Source: Chloroflexota bacterium (GTDB taxonomy: Bacteria > Chloroflexota > Anaerolineae > UBA4142 > SHND01). Taken from it: 47,897 bases of DNA. Positions 7,978 through 39,041 of this stretch are shown here, piece by piece. The stretch spans positions 1 through 47,897 of the forward strand of contig JAKOPZ010000214.1 of NCBI GenBank assembly GCA_029778615.1. The letters run 5' to 3'. The stretch's first letter is position 1, and each line of letters begins with the position of its first letter. The translations under genes were made by a program, and so were the position numbers. Under the pieces are notes generated by a model. The model was not told the origin of the DNA, did not search any database, and saw only the letters and a program-made list of their open reading frames with translations.

Positions 7978-8596
7978 CGACCATCCGTTGTTTCGTGATG
8001 GCGTCGTCAACACGCTCAAGAGCGAAGCGGAGTTTGAAGTGGTAGCGGAAGGCACAACGGCTGCGGATGCCGTGCGGCTCGCAAGCGAACATCTGCCCGA
8101 TGTGTTATTGCTCGACATTAATATTCCCGGCGGAGGTTTGAGCGCGGTGCCGAAAATCGCGGCAAACAGTCCCGTCACCAAAATTGTCATGCTCACCGCG
8201 TCGGAAGAAGAAGATGATGTTGTGCACGCGCTCAAGGCGGGCGCGCGCGGTTACATTGTCAAAGGCGTTGCCGCGCGCGAATTGCGGACGATATTGCGCG
8301 CGGTGCACAATGGCGAAGCGTACGTCACGCCCGCGCTCGCCGCGAGTTTGCTTTCGGATTTTCAGGCGGAAGCGAAAGGGATGAAACAATCCAGTCCGCT
8401 TCAAGATTTGACAGAGCGCGAACGCGAAATTTTAGAATTTGTCGCCGTCGGCAAGAGCAACAAAGAAATCGCGGCGGAATTGTTCTTGAGCGAAAAAACG
8501 GTCAAACATCACATGACCAACATTCTGCAAAAGTTGCACGTCCGCAATCGCGTCGAAGCGGCGCTGCTCGCGCAGCAAGAAACGCGCGGGCTGTGA
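7946..8596 (+). CDS. NarL/FixJ-family response regulator
   Basis: The protein has 216 residues. The receiver domain carries the acidic pair D11/D12, phospho-acceptor Asp57 (LLLDINIPGG), Thr/Ser switch MLTASEE and Lys in YIVKG. The C-terminal LuxR-type HTH begins LTEREREILEFVAVGKSNKEIA and continues SEKTVKHHMTNILQKL. It overlaps the upstream kinase gene, its evident partner. The target promoters are unknown. The gene downstream at 8673 has its own TATAAT, so it may be a target rather than part of the transcript. Confidence 0.95.
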   Translation: MSEKIQIIVIDDHPLFRDGVVNTLKSEAEFEVVAEGTTAADAVRLASEHLPDVLLLDINIPGGGLSAVPKIAANSPVTKIVMLTASEEEDDVVHALKAGARGYIVKGVAARELRTILRAVHNGEAYVTPALAASLLSDFQAEAKGMKQSSPLQDLTEREREILEFVAVGKSNKEIAAELFLSEKTVKHHMTNILQKLHVRNRVEAALLAQQETRGL

Positions 8597-11159: not shown

Positions 11160-12698
11160 ATGAGCAAAGAGTCCGTCGCTAAATTTTTTCTTTTTACATT
11201 TTGCTTGAGCGTATTAACCATTTTTTCAACCCGTACATTGGGCGCGGCGAATCAACCGCTTTCGAAATTCGAAATTCAGAATTCGAAAATCACAATTGCC
11301 AAAATTGACCGCGCAGTGTGGGACACGCTGCAAAAAGGAAAAACGTCGCGCGCGTTGATTGTGCTGAACGAGCAAGCCGATTTGTCGGGCGCGGACAATT
11401 TGAAAACGAAACAAGCAAAGGGCGCGTTCGTGTTCAACGTGCTGCGCGAAACGGCGAATCGCACGCAAGCGCACGTGCGCGCGTTGTTGAATCAGCGCGG
11501 CGTTTCGTATCGCGCGTTTTATATTGCGAACGCGATTGCGGTGGACAAGCTCGACGCGACGATGGCAGCACAGCTCGCGGCGGAAACGAGTGTCGCGCGG
11601 ATTGCCGCCGACCCGGATGTGAAATTTGACGCGCCGATTCCAACTCCGGACGCGGAAGGAAAATACGACAGCGCGGAATGGGGTCTACAAAAAATTGGCG
11701 CGGTGAAATTGTGGGAGAAAAGAATAAAGGGTAAAGGCATCGTCGTCGCGAACCAAGATACCGGCGTAGACTGGCAGCATCCCGCGCTGATTCGCAAATA
11801 TCGCGGCTATGATGCGAAAACGCAAACCGTTGACCACAGCTACAATTGGTGGGACGCGATTCATTCCAGCATCACGGGCTATGATAACGCGTGCGGTTAT
11901 AACACTGCCGCGCCATGCGACGATTATGGACACGGCACGCACACGATGGGCACGCTGGTCGGACGCGCGGGCACGAATCGCGTGGGCGTCGCGCCCAAAG
12001 CAAAATGGATTTCGTGCCGCAATATGGACGAAGGCACGGGACGTCCGACAACATACATGGAATGTTTTGAATTTTTTCTCGCGCCGTGGGATGCGAACGG
12101 CAACAATCCCGACCCGAACCGCGCGCCCGATGTGGTCAGCAATTCGTGGGGCTGTCCGCCCTCCGAATTGTGCGAACCGGACAGCTTGAAGCAAGCGACG
12201 CGTGCGTTACGCGCCGCCGGCATTTTTGTTTCGGCTTCGGCGGGTAATGAAGGTTCGGGCTGCGCGAGCGTGTCCGACCCGGCAGGCATTTACAATCCAG
12301 CCACAACGGTCGGCGCGACGGACAAGAACGACAATCTGGCATCGTTCAGCAGTCGCGGTCCCGTCACGGCGGACGACAGCAATCGGCGCAAACCGGACCT
12401 CAGCGCGCCCGGCGTGAATGTGCGTTCGACGATTCCGGGCGCCAAGTACGGCACCAGCAGCGGGACTTCGATGGCGGCGCCGCATGTCGCGGGCGCGGTC
12501 GCGTTGTTGTGGCAGGCGCGCCCCGCGTTACGCGGATTCATTGGCGAGACGGAAAAAGCATTGTTCTATTCCGCCAAGCGCGACGTTACCGTTTCGGGAA
12601 ACCAAACGTGCGGCGGAACCGGCGCAAACGATATTCCAAACAATCTCTTTGGCTGGGGCAGATTGAATGTATGGAAGGCGTACAAACAATTGAAATAA
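11160..12698 (+). CDS. secreted subtilisin-family serine protease (S8)
   Basis: The protein has 512 residues. A signal peptide (about 1-30) and an I9-like propeptide (about 50-158, with SRALIVLNEQADLS and SVARIAADPDV) precede the S8 catalytic domain. The triad is Asp200 (VVANQDTGVDW), His258 (DYGHGTHTMGT) and Ser437 (GTSSGTSMAAPHVAG), with oxyanion-hole Asn363 (SASAGNEG). The long insertion between His and Asn, with several Cys, recalls bacillopeptidase F-type enzymes. It should act outside the membrane and mature by cleaving its propeptide. It starts 15 bases after the lytic transglycosylase and is probably cotranscribed with it. A strong terminator follows. Confidence 0.95.
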   Translation: MSKESVAKFFLFTFCLSVLTIFSTRTLGAANQPLSKFEIQNSKITIAKIDRAVWDTLQKGKTSRALIVLNEQADLSGADNLKTKQAKGAFVFNVLRETANRTQAHVRALLNQRGVSYRAFYIANAIAVDKLDATMAAQLAAETSVARIAADPDVKFDAPIPTPDAEGKYDSAEWGLQKIGAVKLWEKRIKGKGIVVANQDTGVDWQHPALIRKYRGYDAKTQTVDHSYNWWDAIHSSITGYDNACGYNTAAPCDDYGHGTHTMGTLVGRAGTNRVGVAPKAKWISCRNMDEGTGRPTTYMECFEFFLAPWDANGNNPDPNRAPDVVSNSWGCPPSELCEPDSLKQATRALRAAGIFVSASAGNEGSGCASVSDPAGIYNPATTVGATDKNDNLASFSSRGPVTADDSNRRKPDLSAPGVNVRSTIPGAKYGTSSGTSMAAPHVAGAVALLWQARPALRGFIGETEKALFYSAKRDVTVSGNQTCGGTGANDIPNNLFGWGRLNVWKAYKQLK

Positions 12699-28769: not shown

Positions 28770-28874
28770 ATGCAAGACCTTTTGATGCTCGCAATTGTTG
28801 CAGTCCTCGTAGCGGCGACGCTCGGCTTGACGCGACTGGTCGAACGCCTGATGGCGGAGGAAACGGCAAAATGA
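28770..28874 (+). CDS. 34-residue single-pass membrane protein at the head of the kdp operon
   Basis: The predicted protein has one hydrophobic helix (LLMLAIVAVLVAATLGL) followed by a charged tail (RLVERLMAEETAK). GAGGA precedes the ATG by about five bases. Its stop TGA overlaps the kdpF ATG (ATGA at 28871-28874), so it is translationally coupled to kdpF. Small hydrophobic ORFs before kdpF occur in other bacteria, but I know no assigned role. It may be an additional KdpF-like stabilising or regulatory peptide (inferred). Ribosome-binding site, overlap and hydrophobic pattern together make it credible. Confidence 0.72.
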   Translation: MQDLLMLAIVAVLVAATLGLTRLVERLMAEETAK

Positions 28875-28963
28875 ACCTTGTCTATATTGTGACGGGCGTC
28901 ATTGCGCTCGCCCTGATGGTCTATTTGTTTCTTGCGTTATTGAAACCGGAGTGGTTCGGATGA
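28871..28963 (+). CDS. kdpF: K+-transporting ATPase subunit KdpF
   Basis: The protein has 30 residues with one transmembrane helix (YIVTGVIALALMVYLFLALL) ending KPEWFG, the usual KdpF pattern. KdpF is a lipid-like stabiliser of the KdpABC complex in the membrane. GGAGG (28856-28860) lies ten bases before the ATG, and the start overlaps the preceding small ORF. Its TGA overlaps the kdpA ATG by the ATGA arrangement at 28960-28963. Confidence 0.92.
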   Translation: MNLVYIVTGVIALALMVYLFLALLKPEWFG

Positions 28964-30699
28964 CCATTTCTTTAATTGCCCAACTCGCGCTCTATTTTGT
29001 CATTCTCATCGCCGCAGGATTTCCGTTGGGGCTGTACATGGCGCGCGTATATCAAGGCGAAAAAACATTTCTCGACCCGCTCCTTGCGCCGCTCGAACAC
29101 TGGATGTATCGCTTGTTTGGCATTCGCCCAACGGACGAGATGAATTGGAAAACGTATGCGCTGGCGATGCTCGTGTTCAACGTGCTCGGTTTTGCCGTCG
29201 TTTACGCGTTACAGCGCGTGCAGGGATTCTTGCCCTTGAATCCGCAAGCGCTCGGCGCCGTGTCGCCCGATTCATCGTTCAACACCGCCATCAGTTTCGC
29301 GTCCAATACAAACTGGCAAGGGTACGGCGGCGAGACGACGATGAGCTATCTGACGCAAATGCTCGGCATGACCGTTCAAAATTTTGTTTCGGCGGCGACG
29401 GGCATGGCAGTGCTTGCCGCGTTCATTCGCGGCTTGGTGCGCCACAACTCCAACACGCTGGGAAATTTTTGGACCGATTTAACGCGCACGGTGCTGTATA
29501 TCTTGCTGCCGTTGTCAATTGTGCTGGCAGTGCTTCTCGTTTCGCAAGGTGTGGTGCAAACCTTGACGCCGTACGCGACGGCGCATTTGCTCGAACCGAC
29601 AACGGATGCAAACGGCGCAGCCGTGACCACACAAATCATCGCGCTCGGACCTGCCGCTTCGCAAATCGCGATTAAACAGTTGGGCACGAATGGCGGCGGC
29701 TTTTTCAACGTCAACAGTTCGCACCCATTCGAGAACGCGACCCCACTCTCGAATTTTTTCGAAATGCTCTCGATTCTTTTGATTCCCGCCGCGCTCTGTT
29801 TCACCTTTGGCAAGATGGTCAACGACATGCGGCAAGGGTGGGCGCTGCTCATTACCATGCTCGTCGTCTTGATTGCGTTCGTCGGTCTCACCATGCTTGC
29901 CGAACAAAATGGCAACCCTGCCTTTACGCCGCTCGGCATTGACCAATCCGCTACCAATCTTCAAGGCGGCGGCAACATGGAAGGCAAAGAAGTCCGCTTT
30001 GGCATTCCCAATTCCGCGCTGTGGTCCATCGCTACCACTGCCGCGTCGAATGGTTCCGTCAATTCCATGCACGATTCGTACATGCCGCTCGGCGGTTTTT
30101 CACAGTTGGTCATGATGCAGTTGGGCGAAGTCATTTTTGGCGGCGTCGGCTCGGGGTTGTACGGGCTGCTCGTCTTTGTGATTCTCGCAGTCTTTATCGC
30201 GGGATTGATGGTTGGACGCACCCCGGAATATCTCGGCAAGAAAATTGAAATCTATGAAATGAAGATGGCATCGCTGCTCATCCTCATCATGCCGATTATT
30301 GTGCTTGGCTTTGCTGCCCTCGCGGTGGTGAATGACTTGGCGCTCACCTCGCGATTGAATCCCGGCGCGCATGGGTTTTCAGAAATTCTTTACGCGTTCT
30401 CTTCCACCGGCAACAACAACGGCAGCGCGTTCGCAGGACTCGTCGCCAACACATTTTTCTACAACACGCTCGGCGGCATCGCCATGTGGATTGCGCGCTA
30501 CTGGCTTGCAATTCCAACGCTTGCACTCGCGGGTTCGCTCGCGCGCAAGAAAAAAGTTCCCGAATCCGCCGGCACCTTGCCCACGCACTCGCCATTATTT
30601 GTGGGATGGCTGATTGCGGTCGTGCTCATCGTCGGCGCGCTCAACTTTTTGCCCGCGCTCGCGCTCGGTCCGGTGGTGGAACAGTTGATGTTGCGGTAG
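28960..30699 (+). CDS. kdpA: K+-transporting ATPase subunit KdpA
   Basis: The protein has 579 residues, close to the E. coli length. It is the K+-selective channel-like subunit of the KdpFABC pump and a member of the superfamily of K+ transporters. Selectivity-filter regions of the four pseudo-repeats are visible: SNTNWQGYGGETTMSY, GTNGGGFFNVNSSHPFENATP, the TTAASNGSVNSMHDS region and SSTGNNNGSAFAGL. About ten membrane helices can be seen. The ATG at 28960 overlaps the kdpF stop; a GTG at 28951 would overlap kdpF further. A 61-base spacer carrying a heptamer array separates it from kdpB. Expression is expected under K+ limitation through KdpDE. Confidence 0.97.
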   Translation: MTISLIAQLALYFVILIAAGFPLGLYMARVYQGEKTFLDPLLAPLEHWMYRLFGIRPTDEMNWKTYALAMLVFNVLGFAVVYALQRVQGFLPLNPQALGAVSPDSSFNTAISFASNTNWQGYGGETTMSYLTQMLGMTVQNFVSAATGMAVLAAFIRGLVRHNSNTLGNFWTDLTRTVLYILLPLSIVLAVLLVSQGVVQTLTPYATAHLLEPTTDANGAAVTTQIIALGPAASQIAIKQLGTNGGGFFNVNSSHPFENATPLSNFFEMLSILLIPAALCFTFGKMVNDMRQGWALLITMLVVLIAFVGLTMLAEQNGNPAFTPLGIDQSATNLQGGGNMEGKEVRFGIPNSALWSIATTAASNGSVNSMHDSYMPLGGFSQLVMMQLGEVIFGGVGSGLYGLLVFVILAVFIAGLMVGRTPEYLGKKIEIYEMKMASLLILIMPIIVLGFAALAVVNDLALTSRLNPGAHGFSEILYAFSSTGNNNGSAFAGLVANTFFYNTLGGIAMWIARYWLAIPTLALAGSLARKKKVPESAGTLPTHSPLFVGWLIAVVLIVGALNFLPALALGPVVEQLMLR

Positions 30700-30760: not shown

Positions 30761-32812
30761 ATGATAAAGCCCAATCAAACTGCTATGTATCAACGCGCGC
30801 TGGTAGATTCATTTCGCAAGCTGGACCCGCGTTGGATGGCGCGCAATCCGGTGATGTTTGTCGTCGAGGTCGGAAGCGTCCTCACGACATTGTTATTCAT
30901 TCAAGCATTGTTCGGCGCGGGCGAAGCGCCCACGGGCTTTATCGGCGCGGTTGCGTTGTGGCTGTGGTTCACCGTACTCTTTGCAAACTTTTCCGAAGCC
31001 CTCGCCGAAGGACGCGGCAAAGCACAAGCCGATTCTTTGCGCGCGGCGCGACGCGATACCCAAGCCAAAAAACTCCAAGAACCCAAATACGGCGCGCCCT
31101 TTACGCTGACGCCATCCGGTCAACTGCGACGCGGCGATGTGTTTCTCGTCGAAGCGGGCGAACTCGTACCGGCGGACGGCGAAGTGATTCAAGGCGTCGC
31201 GTCCGTGAACGAAAGCGCGGTAACAGGTGAAAGCGCGCCGGTCATTCGTGAAGCGGGCGGCGACCGCAGCGCGGTAACGGGCGGCACGCTCATTCTCTCC
31301 GATTGGCTCGTGGTGCGCGTGACGGCGAACCCGGGCGAAGGTTTTCTCGAACGCATGATTGCGATGGTCGAAGGCGCGAAACGCCACAAGACCCCGAACG
31401 AAATCGCGCTCAACATCTTGCTCGCCGCGTTCACGATTATTTTTTTGATTGTGTGTATCACACTCCTGCCTTTTTCAATCTACGCGGTCAACGCCAACAA
31501 CGCGGGTACGCCGGTAACCATCACCGTCCTCATCGCGCTGCTTGTGTGTTTGATTCCGACGACGATTGGTGGACTGTTGCCCGCGATTGGGATTGCGGGA
31601 ATGGACCGCTTGATTCGCCGCAACGTAATTGCGTTATCGGGGCGCGCGGTCGAAGCAGCAGGCGATGTGGATGTTCTATTGTTGGACAAAACGGGAACCA
31701 TTACGTTGGGCAATCGGCAGGCGGTTGAATTTATTCCCGTCGGCACAGCGGACGAACGCGCGCTGGCGCAAGCCGCGCAGCTTTCATCGCTTGCCGATGA
31801 AACGCCCGAAGGACGCAGCATCGTCGTTCTCGCCAAAGAAAAATACAACCTGCGCGGGCGCGCACACTCGGAAGGAATGCAGTTTGTCCCCTTCACGGCG
31901 CAGACGCGCATGAGCGGTGTAAATTTTAACGGCACCGAAATTCGCAAAGGCGCGCCCGATACGATGATGCAATATATCAGCGGAAATGGAAATGGGGTGG
32001 GCAACGAACTGCACAGCGCCGTCGAACGCATCGCGCGAAATGGGGGCACACCGCTTGTCGTCGCCCAAAACGGACAAGCGCTTGGCGTCATTCACCTAAA
32101 GGATATTGTCAAAGGCGGCATCAACGAACGCTTTGCCCATTTACGCAAAATGGGAATCAAGACGGTGATGATTACGGGTGACAATCCGCTCACGGCGGCG
32201 GCGATTGCGGCAGAAGCCGGCGTAGATGATTTTCTCGCGCAAGCGACGCCCGAAACGAAACTCACGCTCATTCGCAAATATCAAACCGGGGGGCGTTTGG
32301 TCGCGATGACCGGCGACGGCACGAACGACGCGCCCGCGCTCGCCCAAGCCGATGTGGCAGTGGCGATGAATACGGGCACACAGCCCGCGCGCGAAGCCGC
32401 GAACATGATTGACCTCGACAGCAATCCAACGAAATTGATAGAAATTGTCGAAATCGGCAAACAGCTGTTGATGACGCGCGGCGCGCTCACCACATTCTCG
32501 ATTGCTAATGATATCGCAAAATATTTTGCCATCATTCCCGCCGCGTTCGCGACGACGTATCCCGCGTTGCAAGCGCTGAACATTCTCGGGCTCGCCACAC
32601 CCGCGTCTGCGATTTTGTCGGCAGTGATTTTCAACGCGCTCGTCATCGTCGCGTTGATTCCGCTCGCGCTGCGCGGCGTACCGTATCGTGCCGTTGGCGC
32701 GGCGCAGTTGCTGCGTGACAATCTGTTAATTTATGGCGTTGGCGGAATCATCGCGCCGTTCATCGGCATCAAAATCATTGATTGGATTTTGGTCGCGCTG
32801 CGGCTCGCCTAA
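30761..32812 (+). CDS. kdpB: K+-transporting P-type ATPase subunit KdpB
   Basis: The protein has 683 residues. This P-type ATPase subunit hydrolyses ATP to drive K+ import through KdpA. It shows the actuator motif TGES (VTGESAPVI), phosphorylation site Asp309 in DKTGTIT, hinge motif [19 protein letters not shown], and [12 protein letters not shown]. The Ser in TGES is the inhibitory phosphorylation site known in E. coli KdpB; the residue is present here. The N-terminus ([21 protein letters not shown]) fits the family with the ATG at 30761, although no good Shine-Dalgarno is seen; an ATG at 30785 is possible. A small membrane protein gene follows within 20 bases. Confidence 0.97.
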
Positions 32813-32829
32813 CGATTGGAGGAAATTAA

Positions 32830-33003
32830 ATGATGCGTTCTTCTCAACCCCATTTCCTGCCCCAAGCGATTTTGCTCGTCTGCTTTGTCGGCGCGCTCTT
32901 TGCGATTCATGCCACTGTCGCATCATTAACCGGACGCGAGATTGCAGATTTCAGCGTTCTCATCGCGTTCTTTGTGATGCTCTTGTGGTTGGTGAACCGC
33001 TAA
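32830..33003 (+). CDS. 57-residue two-helix membrane protein between kdpB and kdpC
   Basis: The gene lies in the 215-base space between kdpB and kdpC, where many kdp operons have no gene. GGAGG precedes the ATG by seven bases. The product has two hydrophobic stretches (AILLVCFVGALFAIHATVA and FSVLIAFFVMLLWLV) separated by a short polar loop (SLTGREIAD), so it is a hairpin membrane protein. KdpC starts 24 bases later. I do not recognise a family. By position it may be an accessory subunit or a modulator of KdpB-KdpC assembly (inferred). It would be missed by gene finders with a 60-residue cutoff. Confidence 0.8.
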   Translation: MMRSSQPHFLPQAILLVCFVGALFAIHATVASLTGREIADFSVLIAFFVMLLWLVNR

Positions 33004-33027: not shown

Positions 33028-33603
33028 ATGCTTTACGCACAGTTCAGACCCGCGCTGGTCGCGCTCGCGCTCTTGACGCTTTTGACCGGCTTGGTCTATC
33101 CCTTTTTCGTGACGCTGGTGGCGCAGGTCGCGTTTCCGAACCAAGCGCGCGGCTCGCTCATTGTCGAAAATGGGACCGTCGTCGGTTCGGCGCTCATCGG
33201 GCAAGCGTTTGATACGCCCAACTATTTTTGGGGTCGCCCTTCGGCAACCGCGCCGTTCGCGTACAACGCGGCGGCATCGAGCGGCTCCAATCTCGGTCCC
33301 ACCAATCCCGCGCTGCTCGACGCGGTGAAAGCGCGCGTCGAAACATTGCGCGCGGCGGACCCGCAAAACACCGCGCCAATTCCGGTTGACCTCGTGACTG
33401 CGTCCGCGAGCGGACTCGACCCGCATATCAGCGTTGCAGGCGCGGAATACCAGATTGGGCGCGTGGCGCGCTCGCGCGGCTTGGACGAATCGCGCGTCCG
33501 CGCGTTGGTTGCACAGTTTACCGAAGGACGAGTGTTGGGGATTTTAGGCGAGCCGCGCGTGAATGTATTGTTGCTCAATCGCGCGCTCGACGCGTTGAAA
33601 TAA
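33028..33603 (+). CDS. kdpC: K+-transporting ATPase subunit KdpC
   Basis: The protein has 191 residues. A single N-terminal membrane helix ([28 protein letters not shown]) precedes the periplasmic-type domain. Family motifs include [62 protein letters not shown] and [15 protein letters not shown]. KdpC acts as a catalytic chaperone that raises the ATP affinity of KdpB. The ATG at 33028 follows AGGTG by seven bases; a GTG at 33019 is less likely. It is the last gene of the pump operon. Confidence 0.96.
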
Positions 33604-36328: not shown

Positions 36329-36349
36329 GCGATATGCGATCTGCGATAT
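36329..36349. repeat. heptanucleotide array (GCGATAT type, 3 units) that supplies the kdpD start codon
   Basis: GCGATAT, GCGATCT, GCGATAT run in exact 7-base register and are followed by GCG. The kdpD ATG (36348-36350) is formed by the end of the last unit and the next G. There is no Shine-Dalgarno sequence in the array. Confidence 0.75.
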
Positions 36350-39041
36350 GCGTCCCGACCCCGATGCCCTGCTCGCGCAGGTGGCAAATGAAAAACCCGC
36401 GCACCCGCGCGGCAGACTCAAAATTTTTCTCGGCTATGCGGCAGGCGTTGGCAAAACGTACGCCATGCTCGAAGCGGCGCGTCAACTCGCGCACCTGCCC
36501 CCGCATCCATCAAACGGTGACGGACAAGACGGGCAAAAAGCGCCGGGCGTGGATGTTGTCGTCGCGTATGTCGAAACGCATGGACGCCCCGATACAGAGG
36601 CGCTCCTCGCCGGATTGGAAATTCTCCCGCGCAAAACAATCGAATATCGCGGCGTCACACTGACCGACATGGATTTGGATGCGGTGCTCGCGCGCAAGCC
36701 GCAGCTCGCGCTCGTGGACGAACTCGCGCACACCAACGCCGAAGGAATGCGGCATCCCAAACGCGTTCAAGATGTTTTGGAATTGTTGGACGCGGGAATT
36801 GATGTGTACACCACGCTGAATGTGCAGCATCTCGAATCGCTGAACGATGTGATTGCCAAAATCACCGGCGTGATTGTGCGCGAAACATTGCCCGACAGCA
36901 TCATGGACGCGGCGGACGAAATTGAACTGGTGGACCTGCCGCCCGATGAACTGCTCCAGCGTCTGCGCGACGGCAAAGTGTACGTCCCGGAACAGGCGCA
37001 GCGCGCGCTGCAAAAATTTTTCCGTCAAGGCAATTTGACCGCGCTGCGCGAAATGGCGCTGCGCCGCGCCGCGCTGCGCGTGGACAATCAAATGCGCGCG
37101 TACATGGAAACGCGCGCGATTGCGGGACCCTGGGCAGCGGCAGAACGGATTCTGGTCGCGGTGAACGCGAACACGTTGGGGGAAAAATTGGTGCGCCGCG
37201 CGCGGCAATTGGCAGATGAATTGAATGCCGAGTGGTTTGTCGTGTTTGTCGAAACCGAAGAACAATCGCGCCTGACGCCGCTCCGGCAAGACCAACTCGC
37301 GCGGACGCTGCGTCTCGCAGAGGAATTGGGCGCGCAGACACAAACGCTCGCCGCCGACGACATTACCGACGGGCTCTTGCATTTTGCCCGGTCGCGCAAC
37401 ATTACCAAAATTATTGTCGGCAAACCGGTGCGCCCGCGTTGGCAAGAATGGCTGCATCGCTCGCCGGTGGATTCGCTCCTGCGCGCGAGCGGTGAGATTG
37501 ATGTGTATGTGGTGAGTGCCGCGCCCGAACGCGCTCCCACCGCCGGACAGCGCGATTGGTTTCCGCATCGTCCCTTTGGACGTTATCTCTTTGCCATTTT
37601 GCTCGTCGCCGCCGCGACCCTCCTCAGTTATCTCATTGACCCACTGCTGTCACAAACCAATTTGGTCATGTTTTATTTGCTCGGCGTCGTCATCGCCGCG
37701 TTGTATTTGGGACGCGGTCCGGCTGTTTTGGCTTCTACATTGGGCGTGCTCGCGTTTGATTTTTTGTTTGTGCCGCCGCGTTACACTTTGATTGTGGACG
37801 ATGCGGAATATGTGCTGACTTTTCTCGCGTTGTTTGTCGTCGGTCTCGTCGTGAGCCAATTGACCGCGCGCGTGCGCGAGCAAGCCGACGCGGCGCGCCA
37901 ACGCGAACAAGAGAATGCAACGCTGTACGCGCTTTCGCGTGACCTCGCGGTCGCCGCGAATGTTAAAGAAATTTTGCGCGCGCTCAAAACCAACGCGGCG
38001 ACCATGTTCGGACGCCGCGTGCATGTGCTCTTGCCCGCGCCCAATCGCCAATTACAGATTGTGGGGCAGGACGAATCCGACATGGCAGAAAATGAACGCG
38101 CGGTGGCGACGTGGGCATTCGAGCACGCCCAAGCCGCCGGACGCGATACGGACACCCTGCCCGCCGCGCAAATGCGCTTTATGCCGTTACGCACCGCGCG
38201 CGGCGTTCTGGGCGTGATTGGCGTCGCGCCGGGCGATTCCGAAGCGCATCTCTCCCCCGCGCAGCGTCGTTTGTTCGACACTTTTGCATCGCTTGCCGCC
38301 ACCGCGATTGAACGCGCGCAGCTTGCCGAGCAAGCGCAGCAAGCCCAAGTGCTGCGCGCCACCGAAGAGCTGCAAAACTCACTGCTCAATTCCATCTCGC
38401 ACGATTTACGTACGCCGCTGGTTTCCATTACCGGCGCGCTGACGAGTCTGCAAGAGCAAAGCGGCGCGCTCGACGAACAAGCGCGCCAAGCGCTGCTCGA
38501 AAACGCGCGCGGCGAAACCGAACGCCTCAATCGGCTCGTCGGCAATTTGCTCGACATGACGCGTTTGGAAGCCGGCGCGCTGCGACTCACGCGCGAATTG
38601 TCAGACATGCAGGACGCGGTGGGCTCGGCGCTGGAACAATTGGGCTGGCGTTTGCGCGGACGTGAAGTGCGCGTGGATGTGGCAGAGGATGTTCCGCTCG
38701 TGCCGATGGACTTTGCGTTGATTGTTCAAGTGTTGGTCAATCTGATTGACAATGCTTTGAAATACGCGCCGCGTGATACGCCGATTGAAATTCGCGTCCG
38801 CGCGCAGCCGCAGCAAATTCAGGTGCAGGTGATGGACCGCGGACTCGGCATCCCGTCTCAAGATTTGCCGCGCGTCTTTGATAAATTTTATCGCGTGCAG
38901 CGTCCCGAAATGGTGAGCGGCACGGGCATGGGGCTCGCGATTTGCAAAGGCATCATTCAAGCGCACGGTGGGACCATCACCGCCGAAAATCGTCTCGGCG
39001 GCGGAACATTGATTACGTTTACGCTGCCGTTAAAGACCTGA
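36348..39041 (+). CDS. kdpD: KdpD K+-responsive sensor histidine kinase
   Basis: The protein has 897 residues. Domains in order: the N-terminal KdpD domain with Walker A-like GYAAGVGKTYAML (29-41) and LVDELAHTN; a universal-stress-protein domain (about 255-385); a four-helix DUF4118 membrane region (about 405-510); a GAF domain; HisKA with phospho-acceptor His685 (SISHDLRTPLVS); and an ATPase domain (LVNLIDNALKYAP, DRGLGIP, GTGMGLAICKGI). It is full length. KdpD phosphorylates KdpE when K+ is scarce. The start codon lies at the end of a heptamer array without a Shine-Dalgarno, yet MRPDPDALL matches the usual family N-terminus, so this start is likely used. It is separated from kdpFABC by the MFS/MarR pair. 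Confidence 0.96.
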   Translation: MRPDPDALLAQVANEKPAHPRGRLKIFLGYAAGVGKTYAMLEAARQLAHLPPHPSNGDGQDGQKAPGVDVVVAYVETHGRPDTEALLAGLEILPRKTIEYRGVTLTDMDLDAVLARKPQLALVDELAHTNAEGMRHPKRVQDVLELLDAGIDVYTTLNVQHLESLNDVIAKITGVIVRETLPDSIMDAADEIELVDLPPDELLQRLRDGKVYVPEQAQRALQKFFRQGNLTALREMALRRAALRVDNQMRAYMETRAIAGPWAAAERILVAVNANTLGEKLVRRARQLADELNAEWFVVFVETEEQSRLTPLRQDQLARTLRLAEELGAQTQTLAADDITDGLLHFARSRNITKIIVGKPVRPRWQEWLHRSPVDSLLRASGEIDVYVVSAAPERAPTAGQRDWFPHRPFGRYLFAILLVAAATLLSYLIDPLLSQTNLVMFYLLGVVIAALYLGRGPAVLASTLGVLAFDFLFVPPRYTLIVDDAEYVLTFLALFVVGLVVSQLTARVREQADAARQREQENATLYALSRDLAVAANVKEILRALKTNAATMFGRRVHVLLPAPNRQLQIVGQDESDMAENERAVATWAFEHAQAAGRDTDTLPAAQMRFMPLRTARGVLGVIGVAPGDSEAHLSPAQRRLFDTFASLAATAIERAQLAEQAQQAQVLRATEELQNSLLNSISHDLRTPLVSITGALTSLQEQSGALDEQARQALLENARGETERLNRLVGNLLDMTRLEAGALRLTRELSDMQDAVGSALEQLGWRLRGREVRVDVAEDVPLVPMDFALIVQVLVNLIDNALKYAPRDTPIEIRVRAQPQQIQVQVMDRGLGIPSQDLPRVFDKFYRVQRPEMVSGTGMGLAICKGIIQAHGGTITAENRLGGGTLITFTLPLKT

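Follow-up and report, generated by a model that had tools for sequence, protein, structure and literature searches.

A two-helix membrane protein gene between kdpB and kdpC in a kdp operon of Chloroflexota

KdpFABC is a textbook pump, known mainly from E. coli as a complex of four subunits. One of these, KdpF (PF09604/TIGR02115), has been described as an accessory subunit of the complex (PMC10654040); like the protein reported here it is tiny, hydrophobic and encoded in the kdp operon, but it has a single helix and its gene lies upstream of kdpA. A variant arrangement is found in three cyanobacterial plasmids (Picosynechococcus pAQ7, NIES-970 and Trichormus), in which an annotated KdpF of 83–90 aa with an extra helix is encoded between kdpB and kdpC. 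A KdpF domain makes up the second helix of this protein (hhalign, P 4e-7 against KdpF), and no other KdpF is annotated in those stretches. We presume that this gene and cyanobacterial KdpG are the same. The Synechocystis operon is given as KdpABGCD (PMC13099474). Outside the cyanobacteria, the parts of the literature that our search reached, which did not extend to the original KdpG papers, yielded no report of a protein whose gene lies in the kdpB–kdpC gap.

The window analysed here, a stretch of 47,897 nucleotides from a Chloroflexota bacterium, carries a kdp operon on its plus strand, comprising a canonical KdpF of 30 aa (28871–28963; PF09604 at 32.6 bits with a cut-off of 21.2, TIGR02115 at 35.3 bits), kdpA (28960–30699; PF03814, 816 bits), kdpB for the P-type ATPase subunit (30761–32812; TIGR01497, 1045 bits) and kdpC (33028–33603; PF02669, 259 bits, and also TIGR00681), with a kdpD sensor kinase gene on the same strand at 36348–39041, whose product contains KdpD, DUF4118, GAF, HisKA and HATPase_c domains according to Pfam (including PF02702). 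The kdpB stop at 32812 and the kdpC start at 33028 enclose a spacer of 215 bp, most of which is taken up by an ORF of 57 aa on the plus strand (32830–33003). It begins with ATG, is preceded at a distance of 7 nt by a Shine–Dalgarno sequence, GGAGG (32818–32822), read directly from the DNA, and ends 24 nt upstream of kdpC, which it does not overlap. The initial annotation had described this ORF as an undescribed two-helix membrane protein gene that fills a gap in the operon, and its start, length, ribosome-binding site and filling of the gap are all borne out.

Two hydropathy peaks are present in the 57 residues, and AlphaFold2 places helices at residues 10–29 and 35–56, joined by a short loop, with moderate confidence (mean pLDDT 73); the N-terminal net charge is +1. 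The membrane hairpin claimed earlier is therefore recovered by prediction, and the label of undescribed also holds, in that Pfam and NCBIfam scans of the 57 aa matched no family. The frame has a codon-usage score of 0.27, compared with 0.37 ± 0.10 for in-frame pieces of neighbouring genes, scores that are slightly flattered since the pieces were cut from the training genes themselves, and −0.29 ± 0.15 for off-frame pieces, none of which reached 0.27; one gene in the training set had a wrong start. When a 215-bp spacer was simulated 20,000 times with a first-order Markov model, closed ORFs that begin with ATG and encode at least 57 aa arose in 2.65% of the runs, and ones that also had two hydrophobic segments in 0.05%. 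The ORF is a real small membrane protein gene of a kdp operon, undescribed so far.

Occupancy of the kdpB–kdpC junction was surveyed using KdpB-centred loci (the best 80 of 580 confirmed matches in genome contigs) and KdpC-centred loci, the latter found in 9 of 20 genomes of the order, 58 of 396 of the class and 116 of 400 of the phylum, where the sample comprised 30 loci and 59 chosen kdpC stretches, i.e. part of the 116-genome result. Within the class, 60 KdpC matches in 58 genomes were reduced to 56 readable junctions by setting aside two partial matches (G292) and two at contig edges (G009 and G010); the 56 include one junction (L110, G143 C399) that is identical to that of G005 and is maybe shared sequence. 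Eighteen of them hold a member of the main hairpin family, here called type T, one is that of the window, one holds a second type of hairpin (type S), four hold a DUF4118/GAF-like protein (type D) and the remaining 32 hold none. Many Chloroflexota spacers measure 170–450 bp and some 770–1060 bp; among the best 80 of 580 KdpB matches, those from Burkholderia, Acidobacteria and Planctomycetes mostly have short gaps, nearly all below 100 bp. When all sources were pooled and identical spacers dropped, with the DUF4118/GAF type and L031 included, a sense-strand ORF of at least 40 aa encoding at least two hydrophobic segments was present in 41 of 57 distinct spacers of 150–1500 bp, and an antisense ORF with at least two such segments in 0 of 57, the plus strand having been scanned over the spacer with 15 bases before and 100 after it and the minus strand over the spacer only. 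The majority of these sense-strand proteins are of type T.

Since two-helix ORFs are common at related kdpB–kdpC junctions, conservation in related operons, on which the initial annotation had staked its proposal, stands for gene position and fold; it fails for the sequence, and the gene is absent from both readable junctions of the same genus. The TBLASTN check that had been proposed with it gave matches at chance level only, both across 60 relatives and against plasmids, and the residues themselves are not conserved among those relatives. That many Chloroflexota carry a similar gene at the same junction suggests that the pump has an additional component or regulator which has been overlooked.

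Type T is a previously unnamed Chloroflexota family, which is defined here. Its members range from 52 to 134 aa and are clearly united by their first 65 residues, which have the consensus MxxxxxPxWWxLYxxxPLxIxLLxxExxLxLSxxxHxxxxxGIxxxxxGxxxxWxxxNxxALE; in the family profile, A1, helix 2 has an invariant tryptophan at its end (W54), and W9 is nearly invariant (≥90%) and is typical rather than defining. Leave-one-out profile scores lie between 22.7 and 99.7 bits for 22 of 23 members, the 52-aa protein of L144 scoring 8.3. A C-terminal tail is usually present but differs between subgroups, and is predicted with the very low confidence typical of disordered tails. Helices 10–29 and 34–70 were predicted in the AlphaFold model of one member, that of L035, and across the type the mean net charge is +2.1 at the N-terminus and −0.1 in the loop. 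Nothing above cut-off was found for type T members in Pfam and NCBIfam scans, and the family profile had no match among PDB sequences.

Values of dN/dS are 0.14–0.43 in type T pairs with defined dS, 0.08–0.25 in type S and 0.04–0.26 in type H, which we take to be Herpetosiphon-like; judged from these ratios, the type T hairpin family is under purifying selection. The genes are closely fitted to their neighbours: of 24 type T members, 15 start 7–17 nt past the end of kdpB, and 15 stop between −16 and +3 nt relative to the beginning of kdpC. At several loci the kdpB stop codon merges into the Shine–Dalgarno sequence (TAGGAG). Distances between hairpins follow those between the KdpC proteins of the same operons (Mantel r 0.66, P 0.0002, n = 21, with L117, L144 and L155 left out; r 0.57, n = 27, with these three, two type H rows and the window included). 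For the hairpin family, the kdpB–kdpC junction is a recurrently used slot, with tight gene coupling, co-inheritance and constraint.

A search of the phylum with the profile gave matches at E ≤ 0.01 in 15 of 400 genomes. Three strong matches sit at kdp, and a further one, in G558 (L164), falls at a kdp junction that has no intact ORF for a hairpin; ten others, in long frames, are taken as chance. One protein of 99 aa (L261, near position 8000, G493; also L163) matches the profile at E 1e-7 and is encoded away from kdp, among membrane proteins.

Other proteins occupy the same junction. Type S, a second short hairpin of 56–60 aa, is present at L037, L039, L043, L044, L045 and L139 and always overlaps kdpC by 4 nt. 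It has no profile kinship with the main type (hhalign P 0.11), so the junction probably took up hairpins more than once. Type D, a protein of 249–255 aa at L027, L032, L123, L124, L127 and L143, resembles the sensory part of KdpD; its domains, DUF4118 and GAF without the kinase part, are presumed from inspection by eye. In comparison with the hairpins, type D proteins have more helices and a soluble domain, and no profile link was found. Kinship of the hairpin with type S and with DUF4118 was ruled out by hhalign. Single junctions depart from these patterns: at L143 an extra hydrophobic ORF of 68 aa lies behind the type D gene, at L145 two hairpin-like ORFs follow one another between kdpB and kdpC, and at L031 a hydrophobic ORF follows tandem repeats of a unit of about 67 bp, again between kdpB and kdpC.

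Considering whether the window ORF belongs to the main family, it scores 13.7 bits on the type T profile, a value that segment-wise shuffling attained in 3 of 2000 cases and that none of 969 natural hairpins attained when loci fetched via the profile are excluded; when these loci are kept, 10 of 1011 hairpins match or exceed it. Six type H proteins score 7.3–17.0 bits on the same profile, the window ORF lying above five of them. By hhalign, the window ORF matches the family with P 0.0002–0.0007 over 42–53 columns, and in the alignment, which is nearly gapless across the whole length, its W53 falls on the invariant W54 of A1, with Phe10 where the family has its nearly invariant N-terminal tryptophan. 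A pairwise best-of-family test gave a weaker result, with 13 of 500 shuffles equalling or exceeding the score of the window ORF, and when the window's own 6-Mb genome was searched with A1 at E ≤ 10, the ORF was absent from the matches, and chance matches elsewhere reached 13.0 bits. The helix ends agree with those modelled for L035, an agreement that is not independent because the two models share alignment rows. The window ORF has no C-terminal tail, as in L117 (65 aa) and type S. From these comparisons, it is probably a divergent, tail-less member of the Chloroflexota hairpin family. The weak similarity to that family, and the precedent of types S and T as unrelated hairpins, would also suit a separate recruitment, in which the window ORF would be non-homologous to type T, as type S is, and have the same or another function; given a score that none of the 969 natural hairpins attained and a near-gapless alignment over the full length, we consider this unlikely.

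A history of loss has also to be weighed, in which the window ORF would be the decaying remnant of an ancestral tailed hairpin gene, with the tail and the coupling to kdpC gone, and would be heading for the empty state of the two same-genus junctions. Both same-genus genomes with readable junctions, G004 and G005, lack a hairpin gene, their spacers measuring 60 and 41 bp and holding a short inverted repeat, and their kdp operons group with that of the window on the KdpC tree (4-row clade, SH-aLRT 98). The missing tail and the stop 24 nt short of kdpC fit such a course, and possible partial relics occur elsewhere, at L118, where TAGGAG is retained after kdpB with no ORF, and at L177, where no intact hairpin ORF was found though the profile matches its second half. 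On the KdpC tree of 67 rows hairpin presence switches at least 15 times, gains and losses being indistinguishable there, and hairpins are found in both of its deep halves, which would be in keeping with decay and suggests more generally that the hairpin gene is old and dispensable. Against decay, however, the frame of the window ORF is intact, it has a consensus ribosome-binding site and coding-like codon usage, and tail-less proteins of similar length, namely L117 and those of type S, sit at the junction coupled to kdpC. We therefore regard a decaying remnant as a doubtful explanation. Among the empty junctions, L022, L023, L034, L130 and L178 contain short inverted repeats that resemble small mobile or REP-like elements.

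The close fit of most family members between their neighbours, with the start adjoining the kdpB stop and the stop at the kdpC start, raises a further explanation, according to which the hairpin would act outside the finished complex, either as a helper in the assembly or membrane insertion of KdpB and KdpC or as a device that feeds translation of kdpC. Coupling needs no protein, since kdpC follows soon after kdpB in many hairpin-free operons, and the amino-acid sequence of the hairpins is under purifying selection; a role confined to assembly or coupling thus appears improbable.

On balance, we lean towards the joint reading that the window ORF is a translated transmembrane hairpin, a divergent and tail-less member of the family, and an accessory or regulatory protein of KdpFABC. 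Operon position, co-inheritance and translational coupling make it plausible that the hairpin is a subunit of the pump. It would be inserted beside the pump during synthesis of KdpB and KdpC, with both ends probably in the cytoplasm, and may pack in the membrane against KdpB and/or the helix of KdpC, where it could stabilise or tune the complex; in the longer members, the variable tail might touch the cytosolic domains of KdpB or the K+-sensing KdpD. An accessory or regulatory rather than core role is indicated because the pump works without the hairpin, 32 of the 56 class junctions being empty, and regulation rather than core transport is favoured by the absence of the gene from many operons together with the presence of a KdpD-like sensory protein in the same slot. 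In E. coli, the pump is inhibited by KdpD through serine phosphorylation (PMC11018627), so that, speculatively and by analogy, a membrane protein that regulates the assembled pump would fit in with this. A bolder and more tentative proposal is that Chloroflexota KdpFABC has a fifth, hairpin subunit which regulates it post-translationally through the cytosolic tail, and that the kdpB–kdpC junction serves specifically to house interchangeable regulators of the pump, as may be suggested by the KdpD-like sensory modules or unrelated hairpins that occupy it in other Chloroflexota. If true, this widespread extra protein would give a P-type ATPase a new accessory component, would be a candidate for controlling it after translation, and would indicate that family databases still miss small proteins in well-known operons.

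The cyanobacterial KdpG/KdpF proteins share both the gene position and the two hydrophobic segments of the Chloroflexota hairpins, and by analogy appear to be the nearest precedent for the position of the latter. The existence of these elongated KdpF proteins between kdpB and kdpC in three plasmids could suggest that the hairpin is paralogous to KdpF or corresponds in Chloroflexota to KdpG/KdpF, but the hhalign values for the main family against the cyanobacterial proteins (P 0.07) and for the window ORF against KdpF (P 0.18) stand against 4e-7 for the cyanobacterial control, the window ORF matches neither PF09604 nor TIGR02115 whereas the KdpF of its own operon does, and such kinship is very improbable. 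By hhalign the hairpin was ruled out as KdpF or KdpG, the second helix of the window ORF being unrelated to KdpF. As a canonical KdpF is present in the operon, the hairpin comes in addition to it and is no KdpF that has moved; KdpF likewise accompanies all 13 type T, S or D carriers with a readable kdpA start among the first 30 genome-contig loci, L041 being unreadable. In Picosynechococcus pAQ7 (L176), kdpB is separated from the annotated kdpF by a response regulator gene at 11431–12135.

That the window ORF is an untranslated chance ORF, as the want of a close homologue of its exact sequence might suggest, is hardly credible in view of its coding-like codon usage, the rarity of such ORFs in simulated spacers (0.05%) and the excess of sense over antisense hairpin ORFs at the junction (41 of 57 versus 0 of 57).

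A further small ORF was noted at the other end of the operon, where 34 codons on the plus strand (28770–28874) encode a putative single-helix protein and overlap the start of kdpF (ATGA); Pfam and NCBIfam scans of it gave no match. Upstream of kdpF, ORFs of 30–36 aa with endings like CERLM, CDRL or CEKL are present at the majority of the Chloroflexota loci read and similar ones at several Burkholderia loci and one Planctomycetia locus, a crude pattern detecting such an ORF at 38 of 71 loci.
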